Shown: positions 53,807 through 55,434 of the stretch, piece by piece | Layout: each line of letters opens with the position of its first letter | Position numbering within the stretch: position 1 is the first letter of the stretch | DNA from: Candidatus Woesearchaeota archaeon | Lineage (GTDB): Archaea > Nanobdellota > Nanobdellia > Woesearchaeales > GW2011-AR9 | Length of the DNA: 64,000 bases | Direction of reading: 5' to 3' | Assembly: GCA_018676855.1 (NCBI GenBank) | Contig: JABHDY010000003.1 | Location: 633,907 to 697,906 of the forward strand | Notes under the pieces: model-generated | What the model saw: the letters and a program-made list of their open reading frames with translations, nothing else | Told to the model about the DNA's origin: nothing | Databases searched by the model: none | Position numbers and translations under genes: made by a program

Positions 53807-54256
53807 TTATCTTTTTCTTTTCTTAGCAGGTTTCTTTTTAGCCGCTTTTCTTTTAACTGTTTTTTTCTTTACAACTTTCTTCTTAACCGCCTTTTTCTTA
53901 GCAGGTTTCTTTTTAGTTGCTTTTTTCTTCACAGCTTTCTTTTTAACAGTTTTTTTCTTTGCAACTTTTCGTTTAGCAACCTTTTTCTTGACTGCCTTCT
54001 TCTTAACTGCTTTCTTTTTTCCACGTTTCCTGCCACGAGCCATTTTTGCTCGACAAACATTTCCCTTCTTATCGATGAAGTATAGATAGCCGCTTTCTTT
54101 CTTTACACCAACTTTTGCAACAACCTGTTTCTTCGCTCGTCCCTTTTTTCTTCCTGCTCTGCTCATTTGAGCTCGAGAGACGTTTCCGTTTTTATCGATA
54201 AAATAGAGATAACCGCTTTCCTTCTTAACTCCAACTTTTGCTACAACTTGTGCCAT
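53807..54256 (-). CDS. chromatin-like basic protein: duplicated VVAKVGVKKESGYLYFIDKxGNV module + Lys/Ala/Pro-rich tail
   Basis: Two near-identical modules, then (K/R)KKxxxKKK repeats like bacterial histone H1-like tails. GAGGTG 8 nt before ATG 54256. Confidence 0.7.
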   Translation of the reverse strand: MAQVVAKVGVKKESGYLYFIDKNGNVSRAQMSRAGRKKGRAKKQVVAKVGVKKESGYLYFIDKKGNVCRAKMARGRKRGKKKAVKKKAVKKKVAKRKVAKKKTVKKKAVKKKATKKKPAKKKAVKKKVVKKKTVKRKAAKKKPAKKRKR

Positions 54257-54372
54257 AGTCATCCCACCTCTTTATTTTTGTTTTTTAAGTTTGAAAACTT
54301 GTGGTTTTCTGGTCGTAAAGAAACAACATAAGTATTTAAACCTTTCTTTTTCTTCGTCGAGAATAGTGCCCA

Positions 54373-55116
54373 TTATCCTCTATTAAGAATACTATCTTTA
54401 CTCAGAATTGTGTTTGCGTGTAAAGAATCATTGAGGTTAAGAACACTTTTCTGGAACATATTATGGTCGTCAAAACCTATCCTTGGACATGCAGTATTGA
54501 CCCATATATCAATAAATGGGAAGTTTTCAAGCTGGTCAAATGAAATATTGTTGTCAATAAAGTAGTAGAGTTTCTTGTCAGGGTATGTCTTTTCCAATTC
54601 TAAAGAGTGTTTGTACTGTTCCTGGCCCGGTTTTATGGTTATAATAACGCCGATCTTTGTTGCAGATATGAATTTTATCAATGATCCTTTGTATTTCTTA
54701 AGATTTTTAATTATATCATTAGTCGTGAGAATGGTCATTGTCTTTGCAATAGGGTCATTACATACAACTTCAATAGTTTTTTTGTTATCCTTTTGAGCAT
54801 AGACAAGTGCAAGTGGATGAAATTTGCCATCACCAATGTAGAGGTAACAATCAACATCTTCTTCAGTATTAAGTGAATCCTTGTAACAATCACATCCAAG
54901 TAATTGTTTTTGACATTGTGCTCTCTTTGGTTGTGATGAGATTATTGTAATTCCTAGATCTTCTAACTGCTTCTCTATAGTCTGAAGATTGTTACAGAAT
55001 TGAACAGATGCATAAAGAGCAATCTTAGTATATTTCTTCTCTTTAAGATAATCACATGTTTCTTTAGACAATTCTATATCCTTTTCATACGGTGCTTCTA
55101 CAAAGAGTGTTTCCAT
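54373..55116 (-). CDS. dph2: diphthamide biosynthesis protein Dph2, domains 2+3 (split-gene 3' part)
   Basis: LLGCDCYKDS (2nd Cys region), YIGDGKFHPLALV, GVIITIKPGQEQY, WVNTACPRIGFDD (3rd Cys). ATG 55116 overlaps the stop of the upstream ORF (TAATG). Confidence 0.78.
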   Translation of the reverse strand: METLFVEAPYEKDIELSKETCDYLKEKKYTKIALYASVQFCNNLQTIEKQLEDLGITIISSQPKRAQCQKQLLGCDCYKDSLNTEEDVDCYLYIGDGKFHPLALVYAQKDNKKTIEVVCNDPIAKTMTILTTNDIIKNLKKYKGSLIKFISATKIGVIITIKPGQEQYKHSLELEKTYPDKKLYYFIDNNISFDQLENFPFIDIWVNTACPRIGFDDHNMFQKSVLNLNDSLHANTILSKDSILNRG

Positions 55117-55379
55117 TACCAACCATCCTCTCTCTGAAATTTGTTATGACCCCAACTAATGAGAAGATCAACATGTAAGTTTTTCAAGCCAAGGGGAACG
55201 TCACACGCACCAAAATTGCTTCCTAACCATATGAGTACACGAGCTCCCGTTTCCTTCACGATAGACTCTTCAATAACGTCTGCCTTAGGCTTCATACCAT
55301 CAGGTAACTGGATGCAAACAGTCTTTGCATTTGATTCTTTAATCTTTGCAATTACTCTTTCTAATTCTAAATTGTACAT
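55116..55379 (-). CDS. dph2: diphthamide biosynthesis protein Dph2, domain 1 (split-gene 5' part)
   Basis: KTVCIQLPDGMKPKADVIEESI…WLGSNFGACDVPLG (1st Cys)…VDLLISWGHNKF, then stop. Confidence 0.78.
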   Translation of the reverse strand: MYNLELERVIAKIKESNAKTVCIQLPDGMKPKADVIEESIVKETGARVLIWLGSNFGACDVPLGLKNLHVDLLISWGHNKFQREDGW

Positions 55380-55434
55380 GGTAGTGTATTTTGTATGGTT
55401 TTTTATATATATTTCCGTGTATATATTTGAGAAA

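Follow-up and report, generated by a model that had tools for sequence, protein, structure and literature searches.

The dph2 gene of this Candidatus Woesearchaeota archaeon is carried on two adjoining open reading frames (ORFs), and we conclude, with a probability of roughly 0.88, that their products are the subunits of a functional, two-chain archaeal Dph2 with one [4Fe-4S] cluster between them. Both ORFs lie in the window, that is, the whole 64,000-nucleotide stretch of DNA that was analysed. For this reading, the sequence features, conservation, co-inheritance, fold and rest of the pathway were computed, whereas the complex, cluster assembly, activity and coupling are what we infer. The two-chain enzyme would act as the 3-amino-3-carboxypropyl transferase with which diphthamide synthesis on EF-2 begins: the small subunit, corresponding to domain 1, would supply one cysteine, the large subunit, corresponding to domains 2 and 3, would supply two cysteines and the SAM pocket, and the chains would associate to hold the single cluster between them. 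Because known archaeal Dph2 is a homodimer, the quaternary form is probably an (N+C)2 heterotetramer.

The layout of the locus is given in Table 1. The first-pass annotation had described an 87-codon ORF that carries the FGACD cysteine and stops at TAA, a TAATG overlap with the next ORF, and GCDC and NTACPR cysteine regions on the latter; all of these were confirmed. The upstream ORF (ORF1) starts with ATG and runs for 87 codons to a TAA at 55118-55116 (span including the stop 55379-55116, minus strand), and the downstream ORF (ORF2) provides the cluster ligands Cys75 (LLGCDC) and Cys210 (NTACPR). Judging from this arrangement, the two are probably transcribed into one mRNA and translated by stop-start coupling. 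A promoter and terminator scan of the locus gave signal no higher than that of shuffles; its models are bacterial (sigma-70 promoters) and unsuited to archaea. Searching the genome (944 kb, 92.8% complete) revealed no Dph2 match beyond the two pieces. The gene directly downstream of the pair (53807-54262, minus strand) encodes a protein of 151 aa, in which a 'VAKVGVKKESGYLYFIDK.GNV.RA' unit occurs in duplicate and the long, Lys-rich tail, of the KKAVKKKA type with tandem repeats, is histone-H1-like.

Table 1. Features of the split dph2 locus (positions within the window).
Feature	Coordinates	Strand	Description
Dph2 N-subunit gene	55119..55379	-	domain 1, 87 aa; cluster ligand Cys59 (FGACD); C-terminal ...QREDGW
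Dph2 C-subunit gene	54373..55116	-	domains 2 and 3, 247 aa; start ATG at 55116
TAATG stop-start overlap of N and C cistrons	55114..55118	-	one shared base, 55116
AGAGAGAGG, Shine-Dalgarno-like candidate	55127..55135	-	10 nt 5' of C-subunit ATG; predicted from sequence
ATATATATAAAA, TATA-box-like candidate	55401..55412	-	~22-33 nt 5' of N-subunit ATG; predicted from sequence

The two pieces cover the Dph2 family models in a complementary fashion. In HMM searches ORF1 and ORF2 matched positions 1-58 and 64-285 of PF01866, and positions 1-82 (E 8e-18) and 90-315 of TIGR00322; ORF2 also matched TIGR03682 (E 2e-40). Both exceed the PF01866 gathering threshold of 33.2 (36.0 and 131.4, respectively), and each, scored alone, falls below the TIGR03682 equivalog cut-off of 202.8 bits (50.6 and 138.8), as expected of parts of one protein. 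Where these models (TIGR03682/PF01866) describe archaeal Dph2 as one polypeptide, the three domains are here distributed over two ORFs. Aligned with Dph2 of M. smithii (6q2d), ORF1 covers residues 6-85 and ORF2 residues 93-309, and the 6q2d linker between the aligned parts is about as long as the ORF1 tail and ORF2 start together; thus almost nothing is missing, in agreement with what had been surmised at first pass.

The residues expected of the enzyme are also in place, with one cluster cysteine per domain (C59 on the N-subunit, C75 and C210 on the C-subunit). In alignments of split and single-chain genomes together these cysteines are invariant (Cys1 91/91, Cys2 91/91, Cys3 90/90, with one row incomplete), and they correspond to Cys59, Cys163 and Cys287, the cluster cysteines of PhDph2 (PMC11048331). 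The SAM contacts of CmnDph2 are Gly158, His180, Gln237, Arg285, Asp289 and Asp290 (PMC10669111), for which the counterparts in ORF2, matched by reading alignments, are G74, H100, Q165, R212, D216 and D217. The G, H, Q and R of this pocket are invariant in all split rows that have letters there, the D216 position is D or E, and the D217 position is incompletely conserved (D in 52 of 72 split rows). AlphaFold models reached a mean pLDDT of 93.2 and a pTM of 0.86 for the C-subunit, and 82.7 and 0.73 for the N-subunit; for both models the Foldseek matches ranked 1-15 against the PDB are all Dph2 structures, the best being archaeal Dph2.

Both pieces are under purifying selection, with dN 0.114 and dS 1.79 for the N piece and dN 0.170 and dS 1.27 for the C piece against the congeneric genome (NG86, dS being near saturation). 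Pairwise distances of N and C are correlated in linked pairs (Spearman 0.87) and in unlinked pairs (0.58, which partly reflects shared species history), with none of 500 permutations as high in either case. The window's family has two Dph2 types, and the divergent N and divergent C occur in the same genomes even though their genes are unlinked. This genome also encodes Dph5, Dph6 and an EF-2 with a LHEDAIHRGPAQ loop, the His of its HRG being the diphthamide position of the family. It could be argued that the pair has degenerated in a reduced genome and that diphthamide is no longer made, since DPANN genomes are reduced, some archaea are without Dph2, and one genome of the phylum survey (G135) has no match. 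The low dN/dS, the invariant cysteines, the SAM pocket, the intact EF-2 target loop, and the presence of Dph5 and Dph6 all speak against this explanation, which we consider improbable. As for G135 itself, which is 95% complete, either diphthamide synthesis has been lost or a contig is missing.

Less probable again is that the proteins are ACP transferase subunits for another substrate, or that the N-subunit has an additional role independent of the C-subunit. Unlinked genes would leave the small subunit free for other partners, and at least one genome (G112) has a single-chain Dph2 beside the split pair; however, a further Dph2 gene is rare among the split genomes surveyed, and the genome studied here has the remaining diphthamide pathway.

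The first-pass annotation had left the choice between a genuine two-subunit Dph2 and a recent frameshift or sequencing error to be settled in part by relatives, in which either the same split or an intact dph2 might be found. Here we observed the split. In a near survey of this genome and its 60 nearest genomes, all 61 had a Dph2 match, as N and/or C pieces, and a single-chain dph2 was found in none of the 60 neighbours. The cut falls at the same position in split genomes across the phylum, and in relatives the pieces start with ATG and measure about 80-102 aa (N) and 204-262 aa (C). The junction of a congeneric genome (G001/L098) is the identical TAATG with its -1 overlap, and the closest named relative of the C-part, from Candidatus Woesearchaeota CG10_36_11, is 73% identical. 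Named relatives are mostly Woesearchaeota and Pacearchaeota, and the single-chain gene was found in none of them; dph2 as two genes in DPANN archaea is what this genome's group displays. Two records titled Methanosarcinales and Aminicenantes (L169, L171) hold a woesearchaeal-type split dph2 C-part, and are probably mis-binned contigs.

The arrangement of the pieces varies. Linked relatives have N-C spacings of anywhere between -7 and +1372 bases and use all three stop codons, and some of them have an unrelated ORF, about 160-260 aa long, between N and C (one such ORF, with a GINPGRFGAG motif, resembles SMUG-type uracil-DNA glycosylases). Among the 72 genomes of the aligned split set, all with both pieces, N and C are unlinked in 42, a count that includes pairs on different contigs of draft genomes, for which distance is unproven; on single contigs the separations are 238 kb (G050), 289 kb (G056), 62 kb (G112) and 12 kb, on opposite strands (G004). 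Given the varied spacing, the intervening genes and the far-apart pieces, the split cannot be explained by frameshifting, readthrough or a recent break. A conserved residue marks the end of the N-subunit as well: in linked relatives its tail reads ...(K)EGW or ...EEW, where Trp is the final residue in 44 of 49 and is trailed by a few more in the other five; its alignment column shows no variation across 50 sequences. As the Trp is kept even when another gene follows, it is a feature of the protein.

These observations weigh on two further explanations. Programmed frameshifting or stop-codon readthrough would yield one full-length chain, as might be suspected from the overlap of the ORFs and from relatives in which the pieces share one frame with a single stop between (G010, G014, G016, G022, G083). 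Yet the junction spacing and relative frame vary freely, no shared slippery sequence was seen, some relatives have other genes between the halves and others have the halves on different contigs or far apart, and the residue before the stop is the conserved Trp. A programmed-frameshift gene would have a conserved overlap and a shift signal, and as spacing and frame vary and the halves are often unlinked we rejected this candidate as highly improbable. We likewise rejected the idea of a single dph2 gene broken by faulty sequencing or assembly or by a recent frameshift, the chance of which is close to nil: one indel near the junction, plausibly in the AGAGAGAGG stretch, would join the frames, but the congener and all linked relatives have two ORFs, the same cut is found phylum-wide, and the pieces, often unlinked, are both under selection. 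Of the two possibilities raised at first pass, the genuine two-subunit Dph2 is strongly supported by the congener's TAATG, the common cut and the often distant pieces, which at the same time refute the other.

This raises the question of how often the split arose. In a tree of the C-part rooted on three PDB Dph2 sequences (all trees being quick ones), a branch with an SH-aLRT of 95 parts 74/74 split rows from 22/22 single-chain rows. When N and C were joined, two single chains on long branches (G164, G071) were placed close to the base of the split rows; a topology uniting the split rows is 25 log units better than the free-search tree (p-AU 0.80), and without these two the split branch has a support of 100. 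The N-only tree has 80 columns, too few to resolve. A single origin is thus the reading that these trees favour, although it is not proof. Neighbouring N-C pairs, the window's type, make up a single derived clade plus G209, an exception being G058, which sits inside that clade; the branches of unlinked pairs lie outside. By parsimony the linked pair may be a later reunion of separate genes, but linkage is more easily lost than gained.

Single-chain dph2 was found in at least 18 of the 197 genomes of the phylum survey. Seventeen of the single chains form a clade of their own whose members occur in several scattered families, a pattern suggestive of either lateral transfer or an ancient second gene. 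At the SAM-pocket His, members of this clade of nanoarchaeal Dph2 (L178-L194) read GNxFHS/A instead of GSGxFHP. G112 has both forms in one genome, a single-chain Dph2 together with split N and C genes (L186, L196, L226). G071 is a single-contig genome of 490,885 bp with a 303-aa single-chain Dph2-like ORF that has the three cysteines (L202). In N. equitans, DPH2 is given as absent (Podar, 2013, PMC3655853, Table 1).

The conserved Trp may reflect how the subunits meet. In the AlphaFold model of the isolated N-subunit, residues 81-87 score below 50, leaving the tail without a confident position; if the tail folds only on its partner, as we suggest from the model, such low confidence would be expected. 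A more extended proposal, which we hold tentatively and consider rather unlikely as a whole, is that in the class-wide two-chain Dph2 one [4Fe-4S] cluster is shared across separately encoded chains, that in the linked clade the Trp serves as a docking lock, and that the linked pair is a secondary reunion of scattered genes. On this proposal, cluster assembly would depend on subunit association.

If the two chains do work together, they would form a natural Fe-S cluster with ligands from two separately encoded proteins; in the other known forms of this enzyme all ligands of a cluster are on one chain. The gene split, being class-wide and old, is useful for DPANN systematics, and pipelines that seek a full-length dph2 may score split genomes as being without diphthamide synthesis.

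A split Dph1/2 is already in the literature for Woesearchaeota and Pacearchaeota: a passage of Dombrowski (2019, PMC6349945), citing Narrowe (2018), gives it for some Parvarchaeota, Pacearchaeota, Woesearchaeota and Altiarchaeota, and this genome belongs to the group of DPANN archaea so described. For this group the present analysis describes the cut position, the linkage of the pieces, their origin and how well residues are conserved. What may go beyond the prior reports is the single origin, the Trp conserved at the C-terminus of the N-subunit, and the grouping of linked pairs as a derived clade. In the nanoarchaeon Nst1, a hyperthermophile compared here by gene count alone, Dph2 is likewise divided between two genes, 222 and 440 (Podar, 2013, PMC3655853, Table 1). 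With the archaeal enzymes of known structure (P. horikoshii, 3LZC/3LZD; M. smithii, 6Q2D; Ca. Methanoperedens, 6BXM-O) the pair has in common the three-domain fold, the cluster cysteines and the SAM-pocket residues, the last by comparison with CmnDph2 (PMC10669111). It differs in that the single-chain archaeal Dph2 has three cysteines on one chain and forms a homodimer, whereas here domain 1 is a separate protein. The eukaryotic Dph1-Dph2 heterodimer is likewise a diphthamide enzyme built from different subunits, but there Dph1 and Dph2 each have a complete cysteine set and their own cluster, whereas here two chains would share one.
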